64,000 nt of DNA, taken from NCBI GenBank assembly GCA_950295325.1, contig OX485804.1:4776001-4840000 (forward strand). The letters run 5' to 3'. Source of the stretch: Polytrichum commune. Taxonomy: Eukaryota > Streptophyta > Polytrichopsida > Polytrichales > Polytrichaceae. Of the stretch, positions 7,077 through 48,188 are shown one piece after another. A program made the translations under genes and the position numbers. Within the stretch, counting starts at the first letter, position 1; each line of letters begins with the position of its first letter. The notes beneath the pieces are model-generated. The model searched no databases. It saw only the letters and a list, made by a program, of their open reading frames with translations, and had not been told where the DNA came from.

Positions 7077-7844
7077 TCAAATCAATTTATTGAGTTTGGT
7101 GAGCCTCATGATGCTCTTGAATACATTATCGCGGGGGCTTAGTGCCGCATTGCCGAAGGGGTTGGACCTAACAAAAAATGGGATGCTACCGGCGTGGAGC
7201 ACGAGCCTTCTAAGGTAGGGGGCTAGCCTATCGACCAAAAATGTGTCTTGCCTATCGCCGGTCCAAGTGTCCGGGAAGATGACGTTTCCCGGGGGGTTCA
7301 AGACGCTCTTGGTGGGGCTGTCGTTGATGAGGACGGTGTTCTCTGGAGTCGGCCACCACCCGTGCGGCGTCCCTTGCAGACGGGGGACGCCTCGCCAGAG
7401 TCTCGAGCGGAGGACCTTGAGGAACTGTTGTCCTCCGCCCCGACCGCCAAACTTGGGCACCGGTTGACCTTTCTCGTCGAGCAGCTCGTCGCAGTCCTCT
7501 TGGCCGAGGACGAGGCACGGGCTCGGGAGATCGCGGAACAAGAAGTGGAAGATGGGCTCCGTGTTCTCCATGACCATGGAGCTCCACACAATGACGTGAG
7601 CGAACTCGACCACCTCGCGAAGGAAGTCACGCAGGCCGGGACGGGCGCGGACAGCCTTGCGGTTAATGAGGGTGTCGAGCTCGCCGTCGTAGTCCCTTTC
7701 GTCGGGGTGACGGAGGGGACGCGTGGGGACCCTTGGGATGTGTTGGGTGTGACACAACACCCCGTTGAGGTCAAAAACGATGAAAGGTTTGTGCCGGGTG
7801 GGAGGTCCACTGGTCGAGGGGTTGCGACCTATCTCCGGGGGGTC
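7077..7844 (-). CDS. gene A exon 4: FCP1/NIF-type HAD phosphatase-like domain
   Basis: The exon begins after the acceptor TTCATCACAG and encodes 255 residues plus TGA. HAD motif I is FIVFDLNGVL, so the first Asp nucleophile is kept while the second acid is Asn. Motif II is VIVWSSM, the lysine motif is QQFLKVL and motif IV is VLINDSPTKSVLNP. This order matches the FCP1/NIF-interacting factor group, and the DLNG variant is familiar from plant proteins. Both acids usually needed for general catalysis (second position of motif I, first Asp of motif IV) are changed to Asn, so phosphatase activity is doubtful. The second copy at 19.0-19.6 kb keeps DDS at motif IV and ends with the same NKLI-stop. 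Confidence 0.72.
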   Translation of the reverse strand, partial: DPPEIGRNPSTSGPPTRHKPFIVFDLNGVLCHTQHIPRVPTRPLRHPDERDYDGELDTLINRKAVRARPGLRDFLREVVEFAHVIVWSSMVMENTEPIFHFLFRDLPSPCLVLGQEDCDELLDEKGQPVPKFGGRGGGQQFLKVLRSRLWRGVPRLQGTPHGWWPTPENTVLINDSPTKSVLNPPGNVIFPDTWTGDRQDTFLVDRLAPYLRRLVLHAGSIPFFVRSNPFGNAALSPRDNVFKSIMRLTKLNKLI

Positions 7845-10800
7845 CTGTGATGAACAACTCGACTAGTTTAATTCTATGATCCAATAATGAAATTTTGCGT
7901 AGAAAATGAAGACGGTGCATTATGGGGAAAGACGAGGAAGTGAGGAGAGTGCAAGGAAAATGTGCTCAAGGGCACACTTGCGAACGAGCGTTCGTGAATG
8001 AAGGCTGCGGGGGCGGTGCGCATCATTTACGAGCGCTCGTTCGTGAGCGCGGCTACACGTACATTTACGAGCGGTCGTTCGCGAATGAGGTGGACAGTGG
8101 GTCGCACCCTTTCACAAACGAGCGTTCGCGAATGAGGTGGGTATGCAAAAATGAACATAATCTCATCAACATATACAATATACGAGAAGGGGTCGAGGGC
8201 AGAGAATTTGAAGCAACGCGATGCAAATAACATAGGCTCATATATTAATCCGTTGAATATTTACATTTCTCACGTGATAGTCTATCACATTTTCCTAAGG
8301 CAAAATGATGCCGTGTCCTACAAAACTGTTCGGCTCTAAGGGGGACCACTGAAGAGGGCTCTCGCAAGGCCACTGGATGTCGATGAAGAGAAAAACATCG
8401 CGATGTTAGAGAGGTTACGAACGCGCGTTCGTAAAAAAATGATATTCTCAGAGGAGAGTTACCTCGTCATCGGGGGGAGGGGCAGCGGCGCTGGACCGAG
8501 CAGCAGGTCCCTCCTCAACGATTAACGAACGCGCGTTCGTAACCTCCACAGCTGCACCCGCCTCTGTCTCCATGGCCTCTGCCTCACGCTCCGGTTGAGA
8601 CGCCTGTGTCGCTTGGATGCGCAGCGCGTCTTCTTCCTCGGCGCCCAGGTCCAGCGCGTCCATCCTGACATCCTCCATCCACGCCGCATGGGTTTCTTCC
8701 ACGTCCATCCCATGCACCCCTGGTGCGTCATTGGGGCTCCCCTGCGTGTCCTCCACAATGACCATGTCAGTGTGTCGCGCAGAGTCATCGCCATGTCTGT
8801 CTACTACCCTGGGGACGACGGTGAAAGACGACGTATCGGTGTATGAGGGCAGTCCTACCCTTGAAGGGGGAGGGGTGAGGACTGGAGGACCTGAAGATTC
8901 ACGAACGCACGTTCGTAAATCCTCGTTCTCCTGGATGGCCGCCGCCATAGCATCGTGGGAGGTGGTCGAGGGAACCTCTGGGGGTGGAGGGGTGCCAACA
9001 GGCGTAGGGTGGGGCGCCTGCTGGCGGGAAGGCCCTCCGGTGAACATGCCTGGTGGAGGGGATTGGGAGGGGTATCCTCCAGGGAAGGGGTAGGCCGGCT
9101 GGGGGGGCGCCGAGAAGCTCTGCATACGCTGGAGCATGGCGAGGATGGCGTCCGTCTTCTCGTTCGACTGCCTCAGCTCCTCCTGAATTGCGAACATTTT
9201 CTTGGCATTCTCCTCTGCCGCCTTCGCCATGTCCTCCTTCATCTTTTGCTCGAGCTTGGCGTTAAGCTCGGCGACGGACAATGCCTCCTCTTTGACCCTC
9301 TTGTTTTTGTCAAAGTCTACCCCCAGCTCGACCATGATCTCCATGTCGCCCTCGTCCTCATCGGAGACCTCGATGATTGCCCCCGGAGGCAGCTCCATGT
9401 AGGGGGTCTTCTTCATCCTCCGCCTCGTGTTGCGGTACTGGTCCAACGTCGGTCGGGACCGTTGGTCCAGAAGGTCGAGGTTCTCCATCTTGGGAACCAC
9501 GATCGGCCTGGGCGACACGGATGTCGAGCATCCCCCGGGAGTGCCGAATGCCTCCGCTCCAGACGTTCTCGCGGGGAGGACATCTTGGGTTGTCCCCGCC
9601 GACGACCCCGTGTATCCACCCGGAGTCCCTTGCACGTCGGATGGATTTCCCGACGGCGCCAAAATACGGAGAGGAGTGACGTCCAAGGATCGGAGGATCG
9701 CCTCGACGTTGTAGGAGGGCGCGGGCTCGTCGTCGTCCGTCTCCATGGCGGGCATGCCTTCGTCGACGGGCATGTTGATGTCCGTCCTCGGGAGGGACAT
9801 GTCCTCCAGGTCCATCGTGGAGGCCTTCGCCATGTGCACGTGGAAGTCCTCCTCGTCGATGGCTTCAATGAAGCTGTTGACGACCAGCCCCAGCATCTGA
9901 GATTCAAGCAAATACGTTAGAATATACGAACGTGCGTTCGTAAACATCAACGACGAGAAACAATGTCATCAAAACCCAAGACAAGTTGAGGTGAACTTTA
10001 CGAACGAGCGTTCGTAAATATTAGTTGGAGAGCTTACCATCGCAACATACATGAACTTGCTACCTCCACAAACGTTATACACAGTCTCTCCACTTATTGC
10101 CACGCTCTGCAAAACGGAGACGTAGAACTCCAACCTGAGTTCCATCGCCGGGAAGACAGTGTACAAGGTCTCCTGCAACAGATCCTTGGGAGGGGGATGG
10201 GGGATGCTGTAGATCTTCTTGAACGTAGTATTCGCCCTGACAGGGGCTCGCCCATTCCGAAGTGCGTTGTACGTCAAGAAGACGAGGCTGACCGCCCCCA
10301 CCTGTTTGTTCCCCCTGGCCTCGTTGATGGCCACGATCCCTTCCGTCTTGGCGGGCACGTAAGTGTTGTGGAAGATGTTGTACTCGAATTTGATCGTCTT
10401 CTCGTACAGGTCGGTGACGACAGACAGCTTCTCCTGCTCCACTATCCACAGCCAAACGTGAGGCTCCCTCATGTCCGGAGACTTGTGCTCCCTGAACTTG
10501 GCCATGAAGGGGTCGTAGAAAGGGATGTCCTTCCCCCCCTGCCTCGACGCACCGGGGATCCCCCTGAAATCGATCAGGGCAAATGGGCACCCCCGCCGAT
10601 CCTCCCTCACCTCGGCCCTGCTCATGGTCCGGTCCCACTTGGAAAATGTGACCCTCTCCACTCCGGTTGTCACCAAACAAAATCTGGCCACTCCTTCGAA
10701 TGTGGCCAACCTCTTCCGCGCCAAAAAGCTTCTGTATTGCTCCACCTCCTGGGGATCCGTCTCGGTTTTCTTTGTCCTCTTGTTCCCCTTCTGCTTCAAA

Positions 10801-12780
10801 ATGGAGGCGTGTTCCTTGACAAGACAACGCATTGAGGGTCCGGAGATGTTGTAGTCGACCTTGAACATCTTCCAGCTGGCCCAATTAATGTCCCCGTCGG
10901 CTAGGATGAGTGCGTACTCTGGTATTAGGGCGCTCAACTCCCTCATTGCAGCAGTCTTCAGCTTGCGGTGTTCACACCATTCCTTGATGGAATACGTGCC
11001 GGGCTTGTGTCTTGGCCTCTTCAAAAATATCTTCGGGTATGGGATGGTTCTTCCCACTGTGTTCCCAAGAAGATGCACCGCGCACCTCTGCAACTCGGAC
11101 TCTGTTAACCCTTGAAGGGACCTGAAGAACTCCCTCAGTAGTGGAGGGGCCTCCCCGGTCTTCTCCGCGCTGTATTTCTCCTCGGTGTCGGGGTTGACCA
11201 GATCGTCCGAGCTGTGCGCATCAGAAAATTGTGTCCACAACTCCCAAGTGTCCCTGTTGCAACAGATGAGGCGGAGCTCACCCTTGAGCTCCAGGACAAA
11301 CTTGGTTGTTGTAGACTTCATGTTGATGGAGGAGAACTTGTCCACCATCGCGTCGCAGAATGCCTGCAGCAAGAAAGGCATCAGTAACGCACAAAATACG
11401 AACGCACGTTCGTAAATTTGAATGTCAAAGAACTTGAAAATTTGAATGTCAAAGATATTTACGAACATTCGTTCGTAAACTCACCTTCCATTGTGGAGAC
11501 GGCGTCTTCGCGTTCTCCTTTTCTTTAGGGGGACACCCGTGGGCGACCCAGACGTCCCTTGCAGCCACTATGTTGGCTGCCCACGACGCCTCGAAGGCCT
11601 TGATCTTGTTGCCGGAGTTGAGAAAGGTGGATATCTTCCGCAGCTTGTCCCAATCGTCCGACCACACCAAGAACGCCTTCCAGTAGCGCAAGTCCTTCTT
11701 CAGCTCATGCTGGAAGTTGTCGTCCTTGAGGATTATCTGGGACGCCTCCAAGCTGTGTTGGCCGTCTATGATCCAGAACTCTCCATTCTGGATCCGTGGC
11801 CAGTCCTTCTCCGTCGGACAGGATGTCAGCCCCTTCGGCATGACGCAGACGGTCTGCCTGTCCCACTTGACATTGTTCATTAGATTATTTATCTGCCACT
11901 TCACACCACCGCTCTCGCGAGAGCGAACCACCCATTTGTTGGGGGACATCTCGCACTTGAAGCAGTCCACGTTGAATGTGAAGTGGCGTCCCATGGGCCA
12001 GCAATCCTTCGAGTAGTTGTTGAAGTCTCGAAGGATCCTCGTGGCCTTTACAGCGTCAGGGTTCTCGTCCTTTTTCAAGGGGGTGGGCATTACGACAGGC
12101 GAGGTCACCTCCGCGGTCTCTGTTACTCCCGATTTCTCCATCTCCTCCCTTGTCCTCTTCGATGGCGTGGAGTGTCTACTGGGGCCCTCCGTCGCTTTGC
12201 TAGCGGAAGGCACAGGCCTGGGTGCACTTCTAGATCCTCCTGCCCCTGATGTGGATGGTTTCCTGGGGCTCTTCTTCTTCTTGTTTGCCTCAGTGACCAC
12301 ACTGTTGTATTTGGAGATGTTCAATGCCAGGGCGGTCAATTTCCTTGCCGTCCAGTATGGGCTCAACGCATATTTGGAGAAGAGGCCGTCCAGGTCGAAG
12401 TGTTTGGCATCTTCCGCTACGTTATTGGTGGCGTATTGGTAGGAGAAGGTATTTTTCTGGAAATGCAACAAGAGGTTGATATGATCCTTCTTGTTCTTCA
12501 TGTCCAGAATTACATACTCCCCCTGGGCCTCTATGGACTCTATCTCCCACGTCTTCATTTGAACCCACTGTTCGGGCTGGTCCGGTCTTGTCTCCAGCTC
12601 GTAGGTGAAGCGCATGCAGAAGAGGCCGTCCCCGATCTTCTCTGGCAGTGCCGTCCACTCCCCCATGAAGTCTTCCTTGGGGACATAGTTGTCGTTGCCA
12701 TTATCGTCTAACACCGACTCTGGGAGGCCATCGACCTTCACCGCGAACATCTCAATGGCGCTTCTGCTTGATCTCGCCAT
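7077..12780 (-). CDS. gene A: ParB/DGQHR-like, methyltransferase-like and FCP1/HAD-like fusion (4 exons)
   Basis: Four minus-strand exons join without a frame break: 12780-11485 (432 codons), 11363-10038 (442), 9896-8463 (478) and 7844-7077 (255 plus stop), for about 1,607 residues. All three introns have GT-AG ends and are phase 0. The ATG at 12780 directly follows a splice acceptor (TGTTGCAG), so a 5'-UTR intron is inferred. Domains in order are a ParB/DGQHR-like fold (DGQHS at 339-343), a beta-class methyltransferase-like region (DFRGIPG at 697-703, glycine-rich GGSK near 865), a disordered Pro-rich and coiled-coil segment, and an FCP1-like HAD domain (DLNGV at 1377-1381). The diverged gene B supports this model because it has the same exon plan. 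Every intron contains 22-bp palindromes. The domain names come from motif reading only, and the link of exon 3 to exon 4 is the least certain joint. Confidence 0.68.
7845..8462 (-). repeat. gene A intron 3 with several A-type palindromes
   Basis: The inferred 618-nt intron contains at least five palindromes of the A family. The best is at 8415-8434 (centre CG), and worn copies lie near 7978, 8025, 8062 and 8112. The 44.33-44.83 kb segment is a diverged copy of this intron and the adjacent exon end. Confidence 0.6.
8463..9896 (-). CDS. gene A exon 3: proline-rich and coiled-coil linker
   Basis: This exon encodes 478 residues, starting at ATG directly after the acceptor CTCAG. The first 20 residues finish the methyltransferase-like fold (MLGLVVNSFIEAIDEEDF). 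The rest is low in order: an acidic Asp/Glu stretch (EVSDEDEGDME), a heptad-like Lys/Glu helix (AELNAKLEQKMKEDMAKAAEE) and a Pro/Gly-rich segment. Two palindromes lie inside the coding sequence (8522-8542 and 8898-8919) and are translated as VTNARSLI and LRTCVRES without breaking the frame. The exon is taken to end at GACGAG|GTAACT; without splicing, the frame stops 15 nt later. Confidence 0.55.
8522..8542. repeat. A-type palindrome inside gene A exon 3
   Basis: A palindrome with arms TTACGAACG and centre CG lies within coding sequence. It is translated on the minus strand as VTNARSLI. Confidence 0.85.
8898..8919. repeat. A-type palindrome inside gene A exon 3
   Basis: The arms are CACGAACG and CGTTCGT(AAA), with centre CA. 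It sits in coding sequence and is translated on the minus strand as LRTCVRES. Confidence 0.85.
9897..10037 (-). repeat. gene A intron 2 carrying two A-type palindromes
   Basis: This 141-nt intron (GTAAGC...CTCAG) holds palindromes at 9925-9942 (centre TG) and 9997-10018 (centre AG). Together they fill more than a quarter of the intron and would form strong hairpins in the pre-mRNA. Confidence 0.8.
10038..11363 (-). CDS. gene A exon 2: divergent beta-class DNA methyltransferase-like domain
   Basis: This exon encodes 442 residues. Its end, ELRLEFYVSVLQSVAISGET then VYNVCGGSKFMYVAM, continues in exon 3 as MLGLVVNSFIEAIDEEDF. This is laid out like the last block of N4/N6 (beta-class) methyltransferases, where a helix, a DPF-x-GSG loop and an LG..(Y)I..(E) strand follow one another. 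The position where DPPY would be expected reads IDFRGIPG, then YDPFMAKFREHKSP and WLWIVEQEKL. The catalytic Pro-Pro-aromatic motif therefore appears lost, and gene B has DFRNIPG there. I infer a methyltransferase-derived fold that may bind DNA or AdoMet without classical catalysis. The exon ends at donor ATG|GTAAGC. Confidence 0.55.
11364..11484 (-). repeat. gene A intron 1 carrying two A-type palindromes
   Basis: This 121-nt intron (GTGAGT...CTGCAG) holds palindromes at 11397-11414 (centre CA) and 11458-11479. The second has one arm base changed and abuts the donor site. Two short direct repeats (TTGAATGTCAAAGA) lie between them. Confidence 0.8.
11485..12780 (-). CDS. gene A exon 1: ParB/DGQHR-like domain
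   Basis: This exon encodes 432 residues. The first 150 or so form a globular region rich in Trp and acidic residues. A Ser/Pro/Lys-rich linker follows at about 165-240. The C-terminal half has FWIIDGQHSLEAS, the DGQH signature of ParB/DndB-type folds, followed by a helical region with LRKISTFLNSGNKIKAFEAS. The gene B copy shares WLIDGQHSVEAS and the downstream helices, so this core is conserved while the linker is not. The exon ends SPQWK at the donor AAG|GTGAGT. ParB domains bind palindromic DNA in bacteria, and fusions of ParB-like and methyltransferase domains occur in prokaryotes and phages. Nuclease or CTPase activity is not shown here. Confidence 0.62.
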
Positions 12781-12808
12781 CTGCAACAGAATATAAACAA
12801 TTAGTGAC

Positions 12809-13440
12809 TTTACGAACGAACGTTCGTAAATGACATGCATATCCCACATACTACGCAGTGTTAATGCGTCTTTGCAATTGATGTAATTATATTTACGAAC
12901 GTTCGTTCGTAAATGAGGGGTTGCAAGATCATATAAATTTTTAGTATTGAGTTTACGAACGAGCGTTCGTAAAAGATATGAAGATCAAAGAGACTACTCG
13001 TCATGAATGTATTTGTAATATATTTGGTTATTTTTACGAACGATCGTTCGTAAAAGATATAGGTTTTATAGATTTGGTTTTATTTACGAACGTGCGTTCG
13101 TAAGTATGTCCATTTGGTCTATCTTGTCAGACATTTGGTTGATTTATCTTTCGTAAGTACATGTGATTTGTTTTATTGGTGTTCGCAATTTTATATTTGT
13201 TCTTTAGATATTCGTAGAGGTTCATATTAAAGTTAAGGTTCCATTTGAGTGATATTTTGAGTATATTTACGAACGTGCGTTCGTAAATATAGATCATTTC
13301 AAAGAACGTGGAGTGCGTATTTACGAACGCACGTTCGTAAATGGAGGTTCGGTATGCAGTGTATGTCCATGTACGAACGAGCGTTCGTAAATGGAGGTGG
13401 GTATGCAGTGTATGTCCATTTACGAACGAGCGTTCGTAAA
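12809..13440. repeat. cluster of nine A-type palindromes upstream of gene A
   Basis: Nine copies of arm TTTACGAACG, two bases and the reverse complement lie at 12809, 12892, 12952, 13033, 13083, 13266, 13320, about 13370 (first base changed) and 13419. The centres vary (AA, TT, AG, AT, TG, TG, CA, AG, AG) while the arms are nearly invariant. The cluster probably lies in a 5'-UTR intron of gene A, because a splice acceptor directly precedes the ATG. Confidence 0.9.
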
Positions 13441-13869
13441 TGTGATGGTTTTGGGATCCCCTGTCCGTACATATATGTATTCGTATATATACGTATATGT
13501 ATATAACTGACTTATTAGCTACTCTGCTTGCAGCCGTGCCTGCAAAATTTTGGTCAGAATGATGCAAATCTTGAATCATAAAGCAATTGAGATGTAGAAT
13601 GAAACATGAAGAAGAAAGTGATAATTCACATTGCATGTAACAAAACAAATTGAATTCAAAAAGCAACATTTTCAGAATGTGAGAGGAGTTGGAAAGGATA
13701 ACAAATTACATTGAAATGCTGTAGACTTCAAACCCTGCTTCTTCTCTTTCTGAAAATCCCAGAAATCCTCACAACTGCACACTCAATTGCCTTTCAAATG
13801 CACACCCAGATAACTCTATAATGCAGACCTCAAGCCTTCACAGCTTATATACAAACCCTAGTATACTCC

Positions 13870-14210
13870 CATGTACACAAAACTCACAAGCTTGTAGCTC
13901 TCAAGCTTCTGAACTCTTAAGCAAACCCTTAACTCTCAAGCTTCCCTAAACTCTCAAGCTTCACTTCTGAAGCTTCCCTAAACTCTCAAGCTTCAACTCT
14001 GAAGCTTCCTTAAACTCTCAAGCTTCTAAAGATCACCCTCAAGCTCTCAATCCGAAACTCTGAAGCTTTCCTACTCAAGCTCTCAAGCTTTTGAAACTCA
14101 CAAACTCTCACACTGAAAGCTTTCACAAACTCACAAGCTTTCACAATGAAAGCTTTCACAAACTCAAAAGCTTTCACACAAGCTCTCAATCTGAAATCTC
14201 TCAAAACTTG
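13870..14210. repeat. degenerate tandem repeat, CTCAAGCTT family
   Basis: Short units such as AACTCTCAAGCTTC and CAAACTCACAAGCTTTCACA are repeated with variation. On the minus strand this would be 5' leader of gene A. Gene B has a different short tandem repeat in the matching place (36.29-36.44 kb). Confidence 0.75.
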
Positions 14211-14358
14211 CAACAAAACTAATTTAAAACTTCAAGACTAAAAATAGCAAGAGCTTCGCTCTCTAAGCGCTCCGCTCCTCCTCTCCTCGAAATGACAAAT
14301 GAGGAGAAGAGGAAGGGGCGCGGGGAGGTAGGTGCGCCGCTAGGGTTTCCCAGCACCT

Positions 14359-14368
14359 GCCACGTGGC
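14359..14368. promoter_or_regulatory. G-box-like CACGTG palindrome
   Basis: GCCACGTGGC is a perfect 10-bp G-box palindrome, a common plant bZIP/bHLH site, about 1.6 kb upstream of the gene A ATG. Function is inferred only from the motif. Confidence 0.4.
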
Positions 14369-14384
14369 ACAACTCCACTGGCTA

Positions 14385-14466
14385 GGGCTGGGAGGGAGAT
14401 GGGATGGGATGGTATGGGAGGTGATGGGAAGGGATGGGATGGGATGGGAGATGGGAGATGGGAGAT
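14385..14466. repeat. GGGAT/GGGATGG low-complexity repeat
   Basis: Purine-rich GGGATGGGATGG and GGAGATGGGAGATGG runs form a simple-sequence tract. It adjoins the inferred gene A promoter. Confidence 0.8.
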
Positions 14467-14469
14467 GGT

Positions 14470-14484
14470 TGTATATTGCAACCC
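14470..14484 (-). promoter_or_regulatory. candidate TATA-like promoter element of gene A
   Basis: On the minus strand this reads GGGTTGCAATATACA. Gene B has GTTGCAATATATA at 36528-36540, also upstream of its tandem-repeat leader. Sharing between otherwise diverged upstream regions suggests a conserved core promoter. No transcription start is shown. Confidence 0.4.
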
Positions 14485-14499
14485 TTCATGTTATTCTCA

Positions 14500-16654
14500 T
14501 GCTTTGACATATTTATATGTAATGGACGCGTTTAGGGCATTAACTTGAAAAGCTTAGTTCAAATACATGAATTTTACTCGTTTTATTTCCTTAATACCTC
14601 TACATTTGGATTCCGTGTAAACATATTTTAGAAAAATATACTCAGTTAATTCGTAATAAACAATGCATGTCATTTCCTAGGTTGTCAATGTAGAATCCAC
14701 CCCCAAAGATATGTATATGGTGTTTTAAAATATAGTTTATGTAAGAGCTAGATATCTTTCAATTAATTCGATGGTTCCTCAAATAAATATTACATGCAAA
14801 AAGGAATTCATAATAATATGAGATTACGCAGAGTTGCTATACGATAGGATGTCAATTCAAGTTCCAATATTAGGTCTTAGCTTGAACTAATGCATTTCTG
14901 GAGTGGTCAACTATTTTGCTAGCATCAACTACGAGCTTACGATGAATGAAGTTAGTGCAATTACAAGGGTTTTTGAGGAGTCAATATTGTTTGTGTGTGT
15001 AATGTATCCTAGTAACAATCTAAAACCTAAACCCAAATACCACATACACAACTTTCACAAACCCTAAACCCCTAAACCCTAACCGCAAACCCTACATCCC
15101 TGCATCTTTTTATCTTACCAACCTTTCTTATATGTGGCCATGTTGTATTCTGAGGGCAGGTCAAATTGGTCTACCAATGTTGGTTGGATGGAAAATGCTT
15201 AATTCCGCTCATAACAGTTACTATAATAATTGATAATGATGCCAATTGTCATTTTCACATTCCAAGTTAATAGATTTGAGATAAAACTTTGGTTTAGGTG
15301 ATAAGTGAAATTTCAAATATTCCCTCTTTCACCTTAATAGTTCTGAGTGAAATTTCATCACACAATCCACGATCTTATTATAATAACATGCATGTCTTAA
15401 GACTTCAATTTATATCAACACTTTAAGCTATGATGATGCACATCCTTCTCATAGGATGCAAAACATATATTAATTGTAAGTACATACTATTGTATGCACC
15501 ATTCCAAATTAATAGTGCATTTCCCCAAACCCTAAAAGTCTATTTCCAATAGGACCTCAACTCATTTAATCATGTGTCAACTTAAACTAACAATCGAACA
15601 ATGCATTCAACTATAAATATCACAAATGATCTAATAAACATTTAACCAATGTGTATCCGTACCCTTACAACAAGTGGATGAAAATTCAATTTCCAATAGG
15701 ACGTCAAACACATAATAATTGTAACTATGATTCAACGTTACGGTAGCTAGTATGGTTTCAAGTCTCAATGATCATTACGCTATCATACTATGCAGCATTA
15801 CAAATTGATTAATCTTTCCTACTCATGCCATTTTAATTCCTTATTTTCACACCTAGATACCATTTGAAAGAAGACCTAACTTACATATATTATTAGGTAT
15901 AATTAGTTCATAGTGTCCTCAATCTACCCTAGTGCAAGCCATTATGGATTAACCCGATTTTTTAGTTGTATTCATGCACTTGGTGACCATATTACGGTCA
16001 TTTTTTTATGTGAAACATATGATACCTATAATTTTAGGGGCGTCCGCAACATGTTCTTAGCCACTCTGACCTCATTGTGTGTGTGTGTGTATATGTGTAT
16101 ATATGTATAGATATATATATATCTATGACTTCGACATTCATAACTTTATTAGGCATCAATTGTCAATTAACTTGGACTTCATACCTTAGTCGCAAATCAT
16201 TAAATATTCAATATTAACCATCTCCATATTTAGACATTATGTGTGTATATATATATATATATATACATATATACATATATTTCGATGAGACCTTGGTCAC
16301 AACTAAGGTGTGCAACCGATATATATATTTTCAATATGTTGGCGTGCATGCAAGGCATGTTCCATACATGACAGTGCTATTTATATAATTCCGCATGGAT
16401 GGAATGGGAGATTGTTAGGTCAAAGAAGGTGGCGGAAATCCGCTTTTTAAAGAGCATCCAAGGGATTTTGAACCAGCGGGGTGAAGTACTTAAAGCTCTT
16501 CCCCCCACAACAAAGCTTTTTTCAGCGGCACATGCAAGTGTGCGCTCTACAGACCTCACCGAACGCGCTCAAGCCATTTGGTGTGCGCCAACCCTACACC
16601 ACCCAGGTACAGTACAGGCTGTACCTACCGCATATACCGCTGTAAATACCGGAA
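14500..16654. other. non-coding AT-rich spacer with telomere-like and simple repeats
   Basis: No gene was seen. A degenerate CCCTAAA cluster at about 15058-15098 resembles plant telomere repeats. TG/TA simple repeats lie at about 16077-16130 and 16243-16280. The short open frame at 16399-16662 has no recognisable product. Confidence 0.5.
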
Positions 16655-17557
16655 CTTTATGAACGCACGTTCGTAAAGATGAGGAGCTTCAGGTTTAGAC
16701 AAACGATTCGGACCTGTACATGGCAAGGATTTACGAACGTGCGTTCGTAAATTCCACATGAAAGCATGTTCTGGATTGAGCTACTCATATGGATAGTCAC
16801 ATGCACGTAATCCATGTCAGTTATTTACGAACGTGCGTTCGTAAATATGCCTTCGAGGACCATGCAGACATATTTGACCCTTATCTATTGGTACCTGATG
16901 GTCGGTAATTTACGAACGTGCGTTCGTAAATCCCACCTGAGAGCATGTTTTGGATTGAGCTACTCATGGATAGTCACATGCACATAATCCATGGCAATTA
17001 TTTACGAACGTGCGTTCGTAAATATGCCTTTGAGGATCATACATACATATTTGACCCGTATCTATTGGTACCTGATGGTCGGTAATTTTACGAACGTGCG
17101 TTCGTAAATCCCACAGGAGATCATGTTTTGGATTGAGCTACTCATGGATAGTCACATGCACATAATCCATGGCAATTATTTACGAACGTGCGTTCGTAAA
17201 TATGCCTTTGAGGATCATACATACATATTTGACCCGTATCTATTGGTACCTGATGGTCGGTAATTTTACGAACGTGCGTTCGTAAATCCCACAGGAGATC
17301 ATGTTTTGGATTGAGCTACTCATGGATAGTCACATGCACATTATCCATGGCATTTATTTACGAACGTGCGTTCGTAAATATGCCTTCGAGGTTCATACAT
17401 ACATATTTGACCCGTGTCTATTCGTACCTGATGGTCGGTAATTTACGAACGTGCGTTCGTAAATCCCACATGAGAGCATGTTCTGGATTGAGCTACTCAT
17501 ATGGTTAGTCACATGCACTTAATCCATGACAGTCATTTACGAACGTGCGTTCGTAAA
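16655..17557. repeat. tandem array of about ten A-type palindromes
   Basis: Palindromes recur about every 90 bp from 16655 to 17557, almost all with centre TG. The spacers alternate between two types, one with TTGGATTGAGCTACTCAT and one with TTTGACCCGTATCTATTGG, so the repeating unit is about 180 bp with two palindromes. The second spacer type reappears at 44228-44266 next to another A-type palindrome. Confidence 0.9.
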
Positions 17558-17576
17558 TATGCCTTCGAGGATCATA

Positions 17577-17612
17577 CATAACACTATATTCGTTAAATTG
17601 AGACTTTTTGGG
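17577..17612 (-). repeat. dispersed repeat, inverted copy
   Basis: On the minus strand this reads AAGTCTCAATTTAACGAATA and continues TAGTGTTATGTATG. Plus-strand copies lie at about 38650-38690 and 44188-44227. In two of the three places it abuts A-type palindromes. Confidence 0.7.
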
Positions 17613-17699
17613 CATTTTGAGACAATCACAAAAATAAGAACAAGGATAAATGGAACACATATTGGAGAAAGTTGTAAGATGCGAACACTTTGAAGCGGG

Positions 17700-18015
17700 T
17701 GTTTAGAACAAGAACCCCATTAATAACTCATATTTGGGATTGTTTAGGGTGGGCAATCCAAACCTTAGGCCAAGTTGAAGGGGAAATCTTAAAACATTTA
17801 TATTATCGCACAAAAACTTGTATGAATATGGTTTAGGTAGCGCAATCCAAACCATAGATCATATTGAAGGGGAAATATGTGAACCAATATAATATAACAT
17901 ACAAAATATTCCAAACTCATATTTGTGATGGTTTAGGTAGGGCAATCCAAACCTTAGACCATATGGAAGGGGAAATCATGTGACACTTATATTATTGCAA
18001 AAAAAAACATACAAA
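17700..18015. repeat. degenerate tandem repeat, three copies of about 110 bp
   Basis: The phrases GGTTTAGGTAGGGCAATCC, AAACCTTAGACCATATTGAA and GGGGAAAT recur three times with divergence. No coding potential was seen. Confidence 0.7.
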
Positions 18016-36440: not shown

Positions 36441-36527
36441 GCACTTCGAACTCTCGCAAGCACTGCCTAAAGCTCACACAGAATGTTGGAAAACCCTTCA
36501 ACAATCTGGAAAACACTTCAACAATGC

Positions 36528-39433: not shown

Positions 39434-40420
39434 GGTTTGGGTCGGTCGACCCAAACCCCTCCAGTAGTGTGGGCGGGTTCTAGTCTCACCCTTGTGAGGT
39501 TTGGGTCGGTCGACCCAAACCCCTTCACTAGTGTTGGGGGGAGTCTACTCTGACCCTTGTGAGGTTTGGATCGGTCGACCCAAACCCCTTCACTAGTGTT
39601 GGGGGGAGTCTACTCTGACCCTTGTAAGGTTTGGGTCGGTCGACCCAAACCCCTTCACTAGTGTTGGGGGGGGGGTCTACTCTGACCCTTGTGAGGTTTG
39701 GGTCGGTCGACCCAAACCCCTTCACTAGTATTGGGGGGGGGGGTCTACTCTGACCCTTGTGAGGTTTGGGTCGGTCGACCCAAACCCCTTCACTAGTGTT
39801 GGGGGGGGGGTCTACTCTGACCCTTGTGAGGTTTGGGTCGGTCGACCCAAACCCCTACCCCACTGTGGGCGTTTATCGTAAAACCTTTTAGAAGGTTTGG
39901 GTCGGTCGACCCAAACTTTTTCGCACATCGTGAACGAATTGTTAATGGCCCTTACCCAAGGTACTCAGAAGGTTTGGACGGACAGAGTAGGAACCTTATC
40001 CCATCATATGTAATGTTTGGGTCGAGCGACCCAAACCTCATCCCAGTGTGGGTGGATTTACACTGTGAAAGTTTGGGTCGACCGACCCAAACCCTTTCCC
40101 GGTGTGGGTGGACTTACCCTATGAAAGTTTGGGTCGACCGACCCAAACCCCTTCTGAGTGTGGGTGGGTTTACCCTGTAAAAGTTTGGGTCGGTCGACCC
40201 AAACCCCTTCCCCAGTTTCGGCGGTTGTAGTTGACCATGACAAGGATTGGGTCGGTCGACCCAAAGTTTTCCCCACAGTGTGATGGAATTCTAAATGGCC
40301 CTCAACCCATCATTGTACAAGGTTTGAGTCGGTCGACCGGAACCCGACCCTATCCCACGGGCAAGGTGTGGATGGCCCTCAATCCCTGGTGCCACAGGGT
40401 TTAGGTCGGCCGACCCAAAC
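39434..40420. repeat. array of B-type palindromes upstream of the integrase-like gene
   Basis: At least thirteen palindromes with extended arm GGTTTGGGTCG, mostly with centre GT, span this stretch. The first eight recur every 65-68 bp with a spacer containing CCTTCACTAGTGTTGG, a G run and TCTACTCTGACCCTTG. Later copies (about 40016 onward) have other spacers and centres AG or AC, and the last ones are worn. The array ends 200 bp before the start codon at 40621. Confidence 0.92.
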
Positions 40421-40620
40421 TCCCACCCAAAATATTTTGTGGAACATTTTGTGGACTGGCGCACAGTATTGGGAGCTCACATTGCATTTGTGTTGCAAAT
40501 GTCTTGATCCTCAGTGTCCCCGTTCATCGTGATGTTTTGCATTTTCCAATATTTGATTATTTTGGACCCTTACGTTGTGTCCATGTTTGTTGAGGTTTCA
40601 TGTGCATGTGTGTAGGCGTA

Positions 40621-43600
40621 ATGGAGGGAGTTGGTGGAAGAGGGGATTCCTTCTCTGAAGACATGGGCAGCACCCAATCTCTGTCTAGGGATGAGCTAGA
40701 CATTGTCGGGGAGGATAGTTTTGATGACAGTGCAGATGAAGGTCATTTGGGGAGTCCTTCACCATCTGACCCTTTTTGCCCCATTGTGGAATGTGCGGGG
40801 TTTTCACGAGCTTCATGGGTGAATTTGGATGTGGTACTTGTTAATGACAGTGGAGTTGATGTGGCGGAGGGTATTTGTCGTAACACACATCCACAAGATT
40901 GCATTGATGAACACCCCCTTGGCACCGAGGACGTTGGAGTTGTTATATTAGAATCACTCGTACATTCGGAAGTCAATCCAACTCATAGGTTCTCGTTGCG
41001 AAGGTGGCCGTTGAGGAATGTGACAATTGAGGGGGTTAGCTTGTGCAACCATGAGCGACGATACGTCCAAATCCAACAGGAGCTCCAAGCAAACATTCGG
41101 CCACGCAAAGGCCTTCGGAAGTACGAAACATTGACACGTCCTACTCCGTCTGCAAATAAGTGTAAACGTCAAAGGTTGCTCTGTGAGGAGTCTATTAGAG
41201 AAGTTGCTACGAAGGATTGTTGTGTACATCGTTGTTGCCAATTGTTCCCAAGAGATAAATTGAAGGCCATCCGTGAAGAAATGTGGCTTGGAGATTTCCG
41301 TCTAAGATCCACCAAAAAACTTGATGTCCATAGGGCGATACATGTGAACGGAGCGGGTCGCAAGGTCATCACCCTTGAGAGCATAGACGTGTGTTGTACG
41401 GCATGGTACACCATTCATGGTGTGTCGAAAGCGGAATTTTATAGACAAGCCGCGTATGCCAATGAAGGCCGCCGTGCCCGTCACCATGGGAACATGGGCT
41501 TAAAGAAACCAAGAGAAGCAACGAGACAAGCAACAGCCACTTTGGCAACCATCATTGTCCCCCTTGCCGATGCAATGCCGCACAAAACACGCACACTCGC
41601 AACCGGTGAAAAGGTTGTGGAGAAGGTTCTTCCTACAGGCACGAAATGGAAAGACATATTGTTGGACGTAAACGCACTTGGCGAGAAGGCCGGGTTGGAC
41701 CCAATTTCGTTGTCGAAACTGAGTGCTATCAAAAAATCTCACTTTAGCGAATACATCACAAAAAGACGAGGCGACAAATTTTCCCGTTGTTCCAAATGCG
41801 AGAAGTTGAAACGCCTTCGAGATGCACACACGATGGGGACAGAGTCCTATGCCGCACATCAAATGAACTATTTCAAGCATGTGAACATGCAAGAGGCACA
41901 CCGTAATGATTACTACACAAATAGAGCTTTGTCCATCTCCAGGCCTTTGGAAGTCCTTACAATCATCCATGACAAGATGGACCATGCCAAAACAGCCTCA
42001 CCATGTTTTGCAAATCGAATAAAAGCCACGGACGGCCTTTTTAAGCTTCCTGTTTCGATTATAGGTGATTTTGATAACAATTGCATTGCATTACCTAAAC
42101 ACAAATTTGCGCATTTAGGTTTGTACTTGGGGCCATACATGTACACCATGTGAATTTTTTGGTGTTATAGTTGAATATTAAACCATTGGGTTGCCTTTGC
42201 AGGAATGCTTGCACATGGGCATGGTGATGTCAAATATGCTCATTATGCTCTTGATTTGTATCCGGCGGATTCAAACCACACGATAGGGTCATTTGCAAAG
42301 CTTTTACGTGATTTGGAGAAACCGCCGTCCTATTCATCAAGATTGTTATTTGAAAACTCGGGATCAACACCTCTATATGAAGCGGTCTTGGATGGAAGAG
42401 ATGTATGCGTGCACTCATTGCCGGAGCCACCAAGTGAAGATGTGATTGCCAAGAATTTGCCCCCAACTCTGCGTGTCCAATTGGACAATTGTGCGAAGGA
42501 CAATAAAAGTAGATATGTTTTTGCATATTGGTCGTTGTTGGTTGCGAAAGGCATTTTCAAGGAGGTTTTTGTGTCCTTTCTATTGGTAGGCCACACGCAC
42601 GATGATATTGATGCGTCCTTTGGGCGGTGGAGCATGAAGTTGCGCGAGGAGGATTTTCCAACAATCTCATTGTTGATGAAGTCGTACATGGATTTGGAGA
42701 ACATTCCCGTCATCCCCCATATGATCGAGGAGGTTCCAGACTTCAAGGCATTTATAGAACCGTATATTCGAAGCGGAGCTCACCGATTGATCGGGCATAC
42801 GAAGGCACAACAATTTCGGTTCTACGTGCGTGACGATGGTGTCCCCGCCATGCAATACAAGTTGTTGTGCACATCACAAGACTGGAGCCCGCCGGAGGGT
42901 CTCCTTGTATGGCGTGTTGATGGGGAAGGAAGGACGATGTTGCCTGACGGAGAGCCTAAGCCTTGCAAACCAATACCCATGAAGAATTTGGAGGACATTT
43001 GTAAAGGCATATCAGGCTTCATACAATATTGGGAGAGTTTGAGGGTAGCGGATGTTGGTGGATCGTGTTGGCTTCGTTACGGAAGTTGGATACAATATTG
43101 GACACGTGTTCGTGGCGCTTTGGCAAACCTTCATCAAGATACACCCCTTACTTTAAGGCATGGGTTTTGGCCACAAACACGTGTCAATGTACAAGCTTCG
43201 GAGGCTAGTCTTTTGGGAAATGGAGAGGTTCGAGAGGAGTTTGATGTGGACGACCATTACGTGGGGCCTGCTAGTAGTCGTCCGCCACCATCTTTCCGCA
43301 TTGCAGTGGATTGTCATGAAGGTTATATGCTCATTTTGCGTCCTGGAGACGAGACATATGCAAAGCCAGTGTGGGTGGCAAGAGCTTTGTCCAAACCAAA
43401 TTTTGTAACTTCCAGCCCTCATTTTCGACAAATACAAGTAGAGTACTACCGACCGACAGCACGGAATGAAGATGTTGTTCGGCATTATACAGGCTGGGAT
43501 ACAAACCCTAACTTTCGGTGGAAGGTGGATTCTGAGCATGGTCCATCTTGGGTAGATACAGATTCCATATTCATAGCATGGAAACCACGGAAAAATCATA

Positions 43601-43689
43601 GTGGATCAGTGTCCATCCCTCAAAAGTACATAACTTTTGCAAAAGACAACCTTGCTCGGATCGCAGAAGAAGCAACCCACGTTGAATGA
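40621..43689 (+). CDS. DDE/integrase-like protein with Cys-rich N-terminal half (2 exons)
   Basis: Exon 1 (40621-42064) and exon 2 (42203-43689) join in phase 1 through intron GTGATT...TTTGCAG, giving 976 residues. The ATG at 40621 follows a probable 5'-UTR splice acceptor (TGTGTAG, 40615). The N-terminal half has a Cys/His cluster (KDCCVHRCCQLF, then VCCTAWYTIHGVSKAEFY). The C-terminal half has IHDKMD (Asp451), VQLDNCAKDNKSRYV (Asp576) and VGHTHDDIDASFGRWS (His612 to Asp618). This layout belongs to a eukaryotic family usually annotated as integrase-catalytic or DUF7869-like and has an RNase-H-type arrangement; the catalytic roles are inferred. The frame is intact. B-type palindromes crowd its upstream region, and gene B lies further upstream on the opposite strand. 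A broken paralogue follows at 45.1 kb. Confidence 0.75.
42065..42202 (+). other. intron of the integrase-like gene
   Basis: This 138-nt intron runs from ATAG|GTGATT to TTTGCAG|GAATG, is phase 1 and contains no palindrome. The protein reads VSIIG-MLAHGHGD across the joint, matching the paralogue. Confidence 0.75.
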
Positions 43690-44160
43690 GAAGTTGGTAG
43701 GATTGTGTTAGCATGATTATAGTGTAAACTGTAATTCGACAAATATATATTACTCATATGTGTGCTCCTCAAACTTGGGGCAAAGTTTGGGTAGAACTTG
43801 CGAATGCTATATTGTTTGGGGTTGGATGAATATCCATTTACTATATTTCAATACAGTTGTGAAGTTCATTTTTTTTATTAAGTTTGGGACTAAATTTTCC
43901 ATTGAAGAAAAATGCATTTATTGCATGCACTTTGTATGTTGCAATGTCTATATTTTATTGACCATGCTAATAATAGAAATCATTTTATATGTTTCTTGGG
44001 TGAAACTAGTTTGGAGTGCTCTACCCAAAGTGTTTTTGTAGATGAAGTTGGTGTTGAGTGCTCTACCACATGTGCTTATGTCCACACATAATAGATTTGG
44101 AATATTAGAACATATAATATATTTGAGATCGTTCTCAATATAGTTTCGGAACACGGAATG
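43690..44160. other. AT-rich 3' flank, no gene seen
   Basis: No protein or RNA gene was seen. The phrase GGAGTGCTCTACC occurs twice near 44010-44070. Confidence 0.4.
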
Positions 44161-44227
44161 TTGTTTGATCCATATATTAATTTGAGACTAGAGAAAGTCT
44201 CAATTTAACGAATATAATGTTACATAC
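44161..44227 (+). repeat. dispersed repeat, direct copy
   Basis: It shares TTGTTTGATCCATATATTAA and AATTTAACGAATAT with 38620-38690. It runs straight into an A-type array fragment. Confidence 0.7.
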
Positions 44228-44290
44228 TTATTTGACCCGTATCTATTGGTACTTGATGGTCGGGAATTTACGAACGTGCGTTCGTAAATA
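44228..44290. repeat. fragment of the A-type palindrome array
   Basis: The spacer TTTGACCCGTATCTATTGG is followed by an A-type palindrome (44267-44288, centre TG), matching units of the 16.7-17.6 kb array. Confidence 0.85.
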
Positions 44291-44332
44291 CATGTCATTA
44301 TTGTCTACGCATCCAGCAACACATCTTCATTC

Positions 44333-44830
44333 ATGCACATTAGTATGGCAGTAATTTACGAACATAGATTAGCAAGAAAAATATGCTCATCGCTCGTCCG
44401 TGAAGGATGTGAACACGGGGTCGCACCCATTTACGAACGTCCGTTCGTAAATGGGTGGGTACGCAAAAGTCAACATAATCAAATTCACAATATGGAGGTG
44501 CTCAGTGTTCAAAATATTGTTGGAGTTGATTCAAGCATCATCTGCAGATTTACTACTTTTGTGCGTATGGACAAGTGTTCTCTTGTGATAATATATCGTG
44601 CAGGTTCCTAAGTCAACATGGTACTTTGACCTACAAAACCGATATTCCTGAGGGTGCTCTCAGATGAGGGATCTCGAAGGCCGCCGGATGCACATGGAGA
44701 AGTTACTGAGGTCACGAACGCGCGTTCGTAAATGCATGTGGCGTTCTCGGATTTTAGATTTCGTCGTCGGTTGTATGGGGACAGGCGGTGGTCCGAACAG
44801 CAGGGCCCTCCTGGACGACTAACGATTGTT
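44333..44830 (+). pseudogene. relic of gene A-like intron 3 and exon 3 end
   Basis: Shared phrases in the same order as 8.0-8.53 kb include GGGTCGCACCC then a palindrome (44430-44451, centre TC), GGGTGGGTACGCAAAA, CTACAAAACCG, GCTCTC...GAAGGCC, GTCACGAACGCGCGTTCGTA and CCGAACAGCAGGGCCCTCCT...AACGA. Orientation is inverted relative to transcription, as at gene A. The coding part is too short and decayed to translate. Confidence 0.6.
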
Positions 44831-45054
44831 CTCCTCTTTGTCCATGTATTGTTTACATTAGTGTACAACCTAGACATATGCTTAAAACGTTTTTTTGGGA
44901 CGCGCGTTCGCCTTTGTGCGTGAGGTTCTCCAATGGTGCACCAAAATTTGTTTGTCAATTTTGGGCCATTTATCTCCACATATATTCTATCATTTCTTGT
45001 ATGCATTGCGGTGGTGGTTGGGTTGATCATTTCCTGGTGGTTGGTCTAGGCGGT

Positions 45055-48000
45055 ATGGCGTTGCATGTGGGTGATAGTTCATTGGAGTTGTCGACGTATG
45101 CATCGTCATCCGATGCTGAATGTGAACTGTCTTCCCCGTTGGCAGATAGTAATGGTGTGCCAAACGTGAGGGGGGTGTTTGTGGATACATCCTCCCATGA
45201 ATCTTTGGAAGTCCACGAACAATCTCTGCATTCCGGAGATGACCACGATGACATTCCGTTGTGTGCCGGTTTCGGGAGGGAGCAATGGGTTGGCCTTGAT
45301 GTCGTTCTACTCAACGAGGTTGGTGTCCCGGTGGCAGATGGCATATGTAGAAACTCCAATCCCCGTGATTGTGTCGATGCCAACGCCCTTGGTCTCGATG
45401 ATGTTGGCGTGTGCATCTTAAACTCTTTGCTTCCGGTAGAGGTCCCGGTAACATGGAGATTTTCCTTGCGTCGATGGCCGCTTCGTCAAGTTCTACATGA
45501 GGAAGTGAGTTTGTGGGATCATGAGCGGCGGCATAAGCAAACACAATTAGCTTTGTTGGCCACAACACGTCCTCGCAAAGGCCTCCGTAGATATGATTCA
45601 AACCGTGTGCCTCACGGAGATAAGGAGCGTCGACGGGATCGGCTTTTGGGGGACGAATCTATCCGTCTAGTGTCCGGCAAGGATTGTTGCGCGAGGAAAT
45701 GTTGCCAATATTTCCCGCGGGAGAAAATTAGATCTCTGCGTCAAGAGATGTGGCTTGCGGATTTTCGTATGAGGTCGGATAAGAAACTCGAGGTCCACAG
45801 AAATTTGCACCTTGATACCCATGGGCATAAGGTGGTGACACTTGAGAATGTTGATGTGTGTTGTACAGCGTGGTGTACCATCCACGCCATCTCCAAGGCT
45901 GATTTTTATAGGTTTCGAAAGTATTCATCGTTGGGTCGCCGCTCTCGATTTCATGGCAAATCGGGCCCAAAGAAACCTAGGGAGGCTACACTGCAAGCGT
46001 CCGCGACACTATCCACCATCATAGTGCCATTGGCCGATGCAATGCCCCACAAGACGAGGACATTGTCGTCAGGGGAGAAGGTTGTTCAAATGGTGTTGCC
46101 CACGGGTACAAAATGGAAGAACATCTTAACGGACATCAATGAAGTGGGTCGCATAGCGGGATGTGGGCCCATTTCTTTGTCCAAGTTGAGTGTGATTAAA
46201 AACCAGCAGTTTGCGGAATACATTCTGAAAAGACCCGGGGACAAGTTCGCTAGATGTACGACGTGTGAAAAATACAAAGGTCTTCGAGACGCCCACCCCA
46301 TAGGCACTGAATCTCATTCCAGACACCAGAAAAAATATATTGAGCATGTCAACAATCAAGAGGCACACCGTCAAGATTACTATAAGAATCGTGCTCTATC
46401 CATAATGAGGCCCACAGAGGTTCTAACAGTCATCCATGATAAAATGGACGACGCCAAAACCGCATGCCCTTGTTATGCACGCAAAATAAAGGCCACAGAT
46501 GGTCTCTTCAAGTTGCCCGTAGCTGTCACAGGTTTTTATGAAATCACAACTACGTGTTTAAAGTCTATCCAATTTTCTTGGGTGTATTTGGCAAATGTCC
46601 AAAATCATACATCCGTTTAGTGGTTTTTTGATTATTTTGGTCACGCATCGTTTGTTTTTTCCAAGTATGATTGCCCACGGCCATGGGGACGTAAAGTATG
46701 CCCATTATGGTTTGGATTTTTACCCTGGGGATGCTAACCACACGGTGGGTTCATTTGCAAAACTGTTGCGCGATCTTGAGAAGCCACCGGTACATTCTTC
46801 CCGTGCACTTTTTGATGGTTGTGGAACCACATCCCTTTATGAGGTAGTGCTTGCGGGGAAGGAGGTTTGTATGTCGTCATTGCCAGAACCACCCGGATAA
46901 CCCATTTGTGCAAAATCATTGCCTCCAACTCTCCACGTTCAACTTGATAATTGTGCGAATGACAACAAATGTCGATACGTATTTTGTTTTTGGTCATTGC
47001 TCGTGGCGAAAGGAATCTTCAAGGAGGTGTTTGTGTCTTTCTTGATGGTGGGACATACACACGACGACATTGATGCATCATTCGGACGGTGGAGCATGAA
47101 GTTGCATGAAGAAGATTTTCCAACCATACCTCTTCTTATGAAATCATATATGGATTTGGACCATATGCCAGTAATTCCGCACTTGATTGAGGAAGTACCA
47201 GATTTCAAGGCCTTCATCAAGCCATACATGTTGAAGGGAGGGGACCGTTTGGTGGGGTATATCAAAGCACAACAATTCCGATTTTATATGAGGGACGATG
47301 GTCTCCCGGCCATGCAATTCAAGCTTTTGTGCACATCTCCTAATTGGGGCCCGGATGATGGTATATTCGTATGGCGTCAAGACAATGATGGGAAAATTAT
47401 ATTTGGTCCCGGATGGGGAACCAAAGCCTTGCAAACCCGAACCCATGAGGAATGGGCCGGAAATCATCAAAGGCATATCCGGATTCATTGAATATTGGAA
47501 AGAGTTGTGCGAGGAGGACATCACAAGACGTGTTAGAGATACCCATGAACCGTTGATCGCGTATTGGGATCGCATTCGCTCAGCCTTGATGACACTTGGT
47601 GGCGACACCCGTACGACTTTGACACAAGGATTTTGGCCACAAAGTCGTTTGACGGTTGTCGAGTCCGATACTATGTTTTTCAGCAATGGAGACGTTCGTG
47701 AAGAGTTCGCAATGGACGAGCATTACGTTGGCCCTGCCCGCAATCGACCGGCACCGTCGTTTCGTGTAGGTGTTGATTGCCATGAAGGGTATTTGGTCCT
47801 CGTACGAGCAGGGGATGAGGAGCATCCCAAGCCAATTTGGTTGGTAAAAGGATTGTCTTCACCCAATTTTGTTCGAACTAGCCCCAACTTTCATCAAATT
47901 GAGGTGGAATAGTGTCGTCCAAGTACTAAAAACCAGAACGTGCTCCGCACTTATTTAGGTTGGGACACCAAAAAGAATTTTAAGTGGACAGTGGACTCAA

Positions 48001-48188
48001 CGTACACACCGGTTTGGATAAACACGGATACTATACTTTGTGCTTGGAAGCCGCGCAAAGGTTCCAACACAGAAGCAATGACCATCCCCCAAAAACATAT
48101 AGATTTTGCCAAAGACAACTTGGCACGTATTGCAGCTGCGGAAAATGACGCCGAGAATGGATATGAAGCGGAAGATGGAGATGGGTAA
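45055..48188 (+). pseudogene. broken paralogue of the DDE/integrase-like gene
   Basis: It aligns over its whole length with the 40.6-43.7 kb gene: FSLRRWPLR, RPRGLRRYD-like block, KDCCARKCCQYF, VCCTAWCTIHAISKADFY, IHDKMD, MIAHGHGDVKYAHYGLDFYP, VQLDNCANDNKCRYV, VGHTHDDIDASFGRWS. The start is taken at 45055, six bases after an acceptor (TCTAG), matching the paralogue. Lesions are an acceptor region before 46667 one base short for the phase-1 joint, TAA at 46898-46900, a one-base frameshift near 47400, and TAG at 47910-47912. After each lesion the conserved reading resumes, and the last stop is at 48186-48188. It directly follows the A-type relic, whereas its intact paralogue is linked to B-type palindromes. 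Confidence 0.85.

Follow-up and report, generated by a model that had tools for sequence, protein, structure and literature searches.

Nested DUF7869 transposons of the moss Polytrichum commune and the palindrome families that accompany their accessory genes

A stretch of 64,000 nucleotides from the moss Polytrichum commune (assembly GCA_950295325.1, contig OX485804.1, positions 4,776,001 to 4,840,000, forward strand; hereafter the window) holds two families of 22-bp palindromes, each belonging to its own transposon. The two transposons, designated element A and element B, each encode an integrase-like protein of family DUF7869 and a four-part accessory protein. They are large, abundant, recently active terminal inverted repeat (TIR) DNA transposons, and in the window B sits inserted in A. 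In the host genome and among homologous proteins, palindrome type follows gene family. To the overall explanation that we favor we give somewhat better than an even chance: self-recognition, in which the accessory protein would recognize the palindromes of its own element much as VANC does in the VANDAL elements of Arabidopsis.

Palindrome families and gene families

A scan for palindromes with 9-nt arms and a 2-nt centre found 22 A-type sites starting TTACGAACG and 21 B-type sites starting TTTGGGTCG in the window, while five Markov shuffles gave 0, 0, 0, 0 and 1 palindromes of whatever kind. The two recurring families, proposed in a preliminary description of this DNA, are real, and the case for that description is now stronger than when it was made. 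At up to four mismatches the 22-bp A consensus TTTACGAACGNNCGTTCGTAAA has 36 sites, two of which, at 49267 and 49402, are the C variant TTTACGGACGNNCGTCCGTAAA; the 22-bp B consensus GTTTGGGTCGNNCGACCCAAAC has 28, counted within 32352-40420, and three weaker ones (3-4 mismatches) lie outside that stretch at 17831, 17931 and 52652. The arrays are built of tandem repeats, and B sites occupy places corresponding to those of A sites, in introns and in upstream arrays. The consensus scan places the sites as follows, with no strand assigned:

7977..8435, five A palindromes in intron 3 of gene A, mostly decayed
8522..8919, two A palindromes inside exon 3 (8522, 8898)
9923..10018, two A palindromes in intron 2, present there in all sampled copies
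11395..11479, two A palindromes in intron 1
12809..13440, nine A palindromes upstream of the gene A start codon
16656..17557, array of 11 A palindromes on the integrase side
44267..44732, three A palindromes (at most 4 mismatches) right of the B insertion
32352..35821, 13 B palindromes (at most 4 mismatches) in gene B introns and upstream of gene B
39435..40420, array of 15 B palindromes upstream of integrase B
17742..17952, three weak B-like sequences (4-5 mismatches) like GTTTAGGTAGGGCAATCCAAAC, found also in the intact B copy on contig C5; they may be related to the B palindrome, as decayed or subterminal forms of it

Two 135-bp repeats at 49239-49522 each contain a C-type palindrome, TTTACGGACGCGCGTCCGTAAA; no C-type gene was noticed in the window.

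The tie between gene family and palindrome family, which the preliminary description had offered as its own test, was found when searching in either direction. The host assembly measures 408 Mb, and at least seven of its contigs are 42-78 Mb long. It contains 2,909 exact A sites and 9,231 exact B sites; reversed-pattern controls gave 0 and 0. Exon 2 of gene A has 95 scored matches among 1,147 candidates, 80 of the 95 being stop-free. Of 20 flanks spread down that match list one was misplaced; among the other 19, all 19 have A palindromes (at most 2 mismatches) in intron 2 and none has a palindrome of another type, six types having been tested; one A palindrome lies 20-22 bases past exon 2 in every sampled copy. 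Ten copies of B, two of which share flanks and probably represent one duplication, carry 11-27 B sites each at no more than one mismatch and no A, C or E sites. Starting instead from the palindromes, the first five A clusters on contig C1 among the matches listed (sites merged within 20 kb) all contain gene-A family sequence, two as placed by exon 2 match position and three by the DNA read; one of the five has a HAD fragment only, 67% identical to that of gene A and with no match to that of gene B. For B, three of five stretches hand-picked among the matches listed hold gene B exon 2, and two have no gene in the piece read.

Intronic placement raises the possibility that the palindromes act as RNA, with hairpins in transcribed introns steering splicing or expression. 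Many sites are intronic, among them the one 20-22 bases past exon 2 in every sampled copy. One-sided changes number 24 in A sites and 15 in B sites, and a G:T pair results from 9 of the former and 1 of the latter. The arms, however, are kept as sequence, with both-sided against one-sided changes numbering 3 (two of them the C variant) against 24 in A and 1 against 15 in B, and sites occur also in exon 3 and in arrays upstream of start codons. We regard an RNA role as improbable.

Homologue reading frames often run into introns, so that palindromes show up as peptides. Signatures fixed from window DNA were FTN.RS and YER.FV for A; VWV.RPK, FGS.DPN and LGR.TQ for B; and FTD.RP and YGR.SV for C. 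They were sought in 57 homologue loci with at least 12 read-through residues (27 in clade A, 13 in C, 17 in B), a set that includes P0002 and P0113 with exon 1 counted as read-through and that when corrected comprises 56 loci. A signatures occurred 15, 0 and 0 times in clades A, C and B, C signatures 0, 5 and 0 times, and B signatures 0, 0 and 9 times. Controls gave 0 hits in 33,140 residues and 0 in 41,406, and shuffled flanks gave on average about 0.04 hits in total. Three protein clades thus pair with three palindrome types, with zero crossover; the tree was rooted inside clade B, placing monophyly of B outside its scope. An ambiguous signature, LRT.VRK, fell 10, 4 and 0 times in A, C and B, and three variants defined after the flanks had been seen fell 0, 2 and 0 times (C2), 0, 0 and 1 (B2) and 0, 0 and 2 (D). 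A half-site framework, CGNNCNWAAM, partly derived from the same families on which it was scored, fits 37 of 56 loci and none of the controls.

Constraint on the palindromes appears in intron 2, in a single comparison of two consensus sequences from the 84% and 97% gene-A subfamilies. Differences occur in 2 of 44 palindrome columns vs 40 of 96 others (Fisher p 2.5e-6), and 23 gap columns lie outside palindromes. The comparison used 18 of 20 rows, leaving out L050 and L052 as intermediate, and seven rows of fixed length may run into the start of exon 3. That the palindromes are passive repeats spread by amplification would agree with the tandem arrays and with the youth of the B copies, which diverge by 0.4-1.2%, one near-identical pair apart (copy C3_32.05, unaligned at left, is omitted here and from the substitution-ratio and CpG analyses below). 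Against it, sites are conserved while the surrounding intron is replaced, and palindromes switch with protein clade; it is the least probable of the explanations considered.

Anatomy of elements A and B

The preliminary description's composite selfish element is borne out by TIRs, by target-site duplications in two copies, and by nine different right flanks among ten copies. The parts in the window, none with a strand unless given, are:

6863..17579, left part of element A; homology to other A copies ends at 6863
17576..17579, target-site duplication ACAT of element B, left copy, the second being 44222-44225; read off the window sequence
17580..44221, element B, a TIR DNA transposon including an inserted Ty3 retrotransposon; TIRs, target duplication, A-array sequence on either flank, and an intact relative of 16,019 bp at another genomic site
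17580..17607, plus strand, left TIR of element B, AACACTATATTCGTTAAATTGAGACTTT; 29-base alignment score 26.5 vs a maximum of 16.5 in 60 shuffles
19556..31745, plus strand, Ty3-type long terminal repeat (LTR) retrotransposon inside gene B; LTR pieces 97-99% identical
44194..44221, minus strand, right TIR of element B, one mismatch; identical end in ten other copies with nine different flanks
44222..48282, right part of element A; homology to other A copies ends at 48282

The TIRs, the ACAT duplication and pieces of A-array repeat unit on both outer sides place B in the palindrome array of A. It follows that the broken integrase-like gene at 44.8-48.2k, which the preliminary description had set beside an A-type relic, is indeed broken but is chiefly the right half of element A itself, split by B; a gene-A-like fragment at 44391-44825, 66% identical to 8072-8528, is unexplained. 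Divergent orientation of the two genes across the arrays, earlier ascribed to family B, is seen there but is no property of B alone, as the accessory and integrase genes of A likewise diverge across the array once B is set aside.

The TIR of B measures 28 bp, with one mismatch in the window and perfect agreement in one genomic copy, that on contig C5, an intact element of 16,019 bp between AAAT duplications. The left end was located in this one of three genomic copies with far enough sequence. All ten right ends compared terminate GTGTT, so that element B begins AACACTA. Target-site duplications were seen in two copies only, AAAT/AAAT in the full C5 copy and ACAT/ACAT in the window; the local repeat in the window is compatible with 2, 4 or 6 bp, and 4 bp is adopted because the C5 copy has AAAT/AAAT around the same termini. 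The homology limit at 6863 explains why the left TIR of element A is missing; no TIR belonging to A was found in the window, where its copy is truncated. Other genomic A copies carry related TIRs, on the gene side in two of three copies and on the integrase side in one of two.

Exon 1 of integrase B gives 40 scored matches in the host genome, at 98-100% identity, out of 881 candidates. Stretches of the two B genes show ratios of nonsynonymous to synonymous substitution (dN/dS) of 0.36-0.63; this analysis and that of CpG decay also leave out one duplicate copy. Two observations on B stand apart. A third TIR of right-end type, at 38652-38680, is internal to the element in all ten genomic copies compared, and beyond the right LTR of the Ty3 retrotransposon at 19556-31745 come roughly 500 bases from the retrotransposon's own 5' interior, marking a rearranged insertion.

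Accessory and integrase-like proteins

Gene A is open, with four exons joined across phase-0 introns. Gene B is broken in the window, as the preliminary description had said, by stops and a frame change, and in addition by the Ty3 retrotransposon; another genomic copy has longer open frames for it. The coding features are:

11485..12780, minus strand, gene A exon 1, weakly ParB/DGQHR-like with DGQHS; splicing and weak profile matches of homologue P0002
10038..11363, minus strand, gene A exon 2, predicted methyltransferase fold, catalytic motif lost; splicing, homologue structure model and motif survey
8463..9896, minus strand, gene A exon 3, low-complexity; splicing
7077..7844, minus strand, gene A exon 4, NIF/HAD phosphatase-like, motif DLNGVL; Pfam PF03031, E 9.6e-12
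34072..35397, minus strand, gene B exon 1, borders approximate, one internal stop; frames
32423..33649, minus strand, gene B exon 2 open stretch, predicted methyltransferase fold; 37% identical to gene A exon 2
31746..32283, minus strand, gene B exon 3, cut by the retrotransposon; frames
19023..19555, minus strand, gene B NIF/HAD exon, cut by the retrotransposon; PF03031, E 1.9e-6
40621..42064, plus strand, integrase B exon 1; splicing
42203..43689, plus strand, integrase B exon 2 with DUF7869; PF25273, E 5.4e-40
44788..48188, plus strand, element A DUF7869 gene, broken by stops and frame changes, start uncertain; PF25273, E 2.9e-35

The earlier assignment of the accessory gene as ParB/methyltransferase-like/HAD fares differently part by part. 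Its HAD portion is solid, with PF03031 (NIF) at 45.3 bits for gene A and 28.1 for gene B against a cut-off of 21.8. The catalytic DxD motif is characteristic of NIF/HAD phosphatases; it is incomplete here, reading DLNGVL in A and DLNGV in a B copy, with the first D retained and the second replaced by N. A methyltransferase fold for exon 2 of gene A is supported by a structure model of a homologue, whose nearest structural neighbours are DNA N6-adenine and N4-cytosine methyltransferases; a sequence search of solved structures gave nothing useful. The ParB portion depends on weak profile matches of the homologue P0002, namely DUF6551 (E 0.006), DUF1015 (E 0.006) and phage ParB-like (E 0.096), all in the range 0.006-0.1 and below curated cut-offs, and NCBIfam gave no match.

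Several N6-adenine and N4-cytosine DNA methyltransferases have palindromic targets, and the structural neighbours of exon 2 would suit an accessory protein that is an active DNA methyltransferase marking the palindromes, marking being one of the two roles, binding or marking, that the preliminary description had proposed. Catalytic motif IV, [DNS]PP[YFW], is however found in 0 of 86 homologues (some being fragments), with DFRxxPG in its expected place, and the final glycine of motif I is lysine in 60 of the 86, the remaining 26 falling outside the pattern searched. Because the catalytic motif is lost, marking by methylation is disfavoured, and we consider it quite improbable. A ParB-like spreading or clustering system, gathering copies or tethering them to chromosomes, is a shade less probable again: the parS sites of ParB systems are palindromic and the DGQHS domain has its ParB-type matches, but those matches are weak and no partner ATPase gene was recognised in the frames scanned.

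The integrase-like gene of the preliminary description proved to belong to DUF7869. A structure model of an integrase relative, P0014, contains a DDE-like core; the DUF7869 protein is probably a DDE transposase. A further DUF7869 transposon fragment occupies contig L001:1-4327, filed as uncultured Synechococcales in a cyanobacterial metagenome assembly and probably moss contamination. It has its own palindrome, GTTTAGCTCGACTCGAGCTAAAC, with two sites matching its 10-nt arms at no more than one mismatch, a third (34-54) with 10-nt arms, a 1-nt centre and one mismatch, and further decayed copies. At E 1e-3, none of the accessory-gene exons matched this 4.3-kb contig.

The window is eukaryotic DNA: its genes are spliced, and it contains a Ty3-type retrotransposon and a 139-bp satellite. 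The named protein relatives are from the mosses Ceratodon purpureus and Physcomitrium patens. Viral-contig scans with both palindromes and alignments A1 and A3 found no relative.

Proposed self-recognition and its relation to known systems

Cognate recognition of the palindromes by the accessory protein is likely in our estimate, being backed indirectly by the co-variation and conservation described above. Anti-silencing as its purpose, suggested by analogy, we put somewhat short of an even chance. The anatomy matches that reported for VANC, which is our ground for proposing that the accessory protein may bind its own palindromes and keep its element expressed. A symmetric dimer of this protein would bind palindromes of its own family, and the methyltransferase fold would read the DNA but leave it unmethylated; once bound, the protein would bring its phosphatase-like domain to the promoters and introns of its own element, which would be kept expressed against host silencing, other families being left alone. 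Still more tentatively, each transposon family may have its own palindromic address in introns and promoter regions, read by its own pseudo-methyltransferase/ParB-like/CTD (C-terminal domain)-type-phosphatase protein, and families may coexist by evolving new protein-palindrome pairs.

Several points weigh against this proposal. Because it is the entire element with which the palindromes co-vary, binding by the transposase would account for the pattern equally well. Near the ends of B there are weak B-like sequences with 4-5 mismatches, at 163-352 bases from the left end in the two copies compared and at 213 bases from the right end in eight of ten copies. The ParB-like assignment draws on weak matches (best E 0.006), the structure model has low confidence in that region, and Foldseek alone gave no significant match for either structure model. 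Seventeen of the 57 homologue loci have no signature at all, and the locus counts are not independent, because the loci in the database are related to one another and a good number of them may belong to this species. Palindrome CpG decay, at 8 of 875 vs 40 of 2331 in other noncoding DNA, is not significantly lower (p 0.10).

The strongest rival, unlikely in our judgment, is that the DUF7869 transposase binds the palindromes, for transposition or self-regulation. The transposase is part of the same family-specific element, the palindromes lie near the integrase start in A, in B and in L001, whose contig showed no accessory exon, and the weak sequences near both ends of B would fit such binding. 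Against transposase binding, about 2.7 kb and 4.0 kb separate the two ends of the intact B copy from the closest exact palindromes, and many sites are inside accessory gene introns.

VANC-like self-recognition has its closest precedent in the VANDAL elements themselves. The VANC reports describe family-specific motifs that sit in accessory-gene introns and in the region preceding the transposase gene, that have multiplied through tandem repeats and that differ from one subfamily to the next (PMC5735166, PMC10398659). The moss elements share with what is described there the combination of transposase and accessory protein, the intronic and upstream family-specific motifs, the tandem arrays and the subfamily variants. 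They differ in that the moss motif is a 22-bp palindrome and not a 9-base one-way motif, and in that VANC causes methylation loss and anti-silencing, an effect that in the moss elements would follow by analogy. The moss transposase is of the DUF7869 type, and the accessory protein has no recognised similarity to VANC. The VANDAL transposase is of the MULE (Mutator-like element) type; Pfam gave neither a MULE-type transposase nor VANC homology, with NIF alone above cut-off for the accessory protein and DUF7869 alone for the integrase. On the best reading, the accessory protein would work like VANC yet be unrelated to it.

En/Spm elements of the CACTA group encode TnpA, an accessory protein for which the element itself contains numerous short binding sites; CACTA elements have CACTA termini and a 3-bp duplication. 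The moss TIR contains CACTA two bases in, whereas its termini read AACACTA, its duplication is 4 bp, its transposase domain is different, and near its ends it has weak relatives of the palindromes only, the exact ones being internal. Membership in CACTA/En-Spm was rejected on the ten of ten GTGTT right ends and the 4-bp duplication. The predicted fold of the homologue's exon 2 resembles that of M.BceJIV, M.RsrI, MTA1 and bdelloid N4CMT; unlike these, the moss proteins have no catalytic motif IV and an altered motif I. ParB/DGQHR proteins share with exon 1 the DGQHS motif and weak profile matches, which differ from true membership in falling below curated cut-offs. Fungal DNA transposons that carry TET/JBP genes offer a parallel as DNA transposons with an epigenetic-type accessory gene; the enzyme family is different, and no palindrome system appears in the portion of that report available to us (PMC12730594).

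Literature searches covering DUF7869, palindrome-bearing moss transposons and Polytrichum transposable elements found, within those searches only, no earlier report. By function the system would be a variant of VANC-like self-recognition; by its parts (DUF7869, pseudo-methyltransferase plus NIF/HAD, palindromes, a moss) it is one for which no earlier report was found. If the proposal is true, a plant transposon has independently built sequence-specific self-recognition, in a moss; one genome offers several natural protein-palindrome pairs with thousands of exact sites; and the co-evolution of DNA specificity and transposon escape from silencing becomes directly testable. The analysis also points to DUF7869 as a transposase and to a methyltransferase-fold lineage apparently without catalysis.

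Two features lie outside the elements. The region 1218-5825 contains two open frames, of 962 and 553 aa, neither of which matches a Pfam family above cut-off. At 53910-63750 lies a satellite with a repeat unit of 138/139 bp; a 24-bp palindrome, CACCCTCTCGGTTCCGAGAGGGTG, is exact at 44 sites and always has TT at its centre, although the monomers are otherwise variable.

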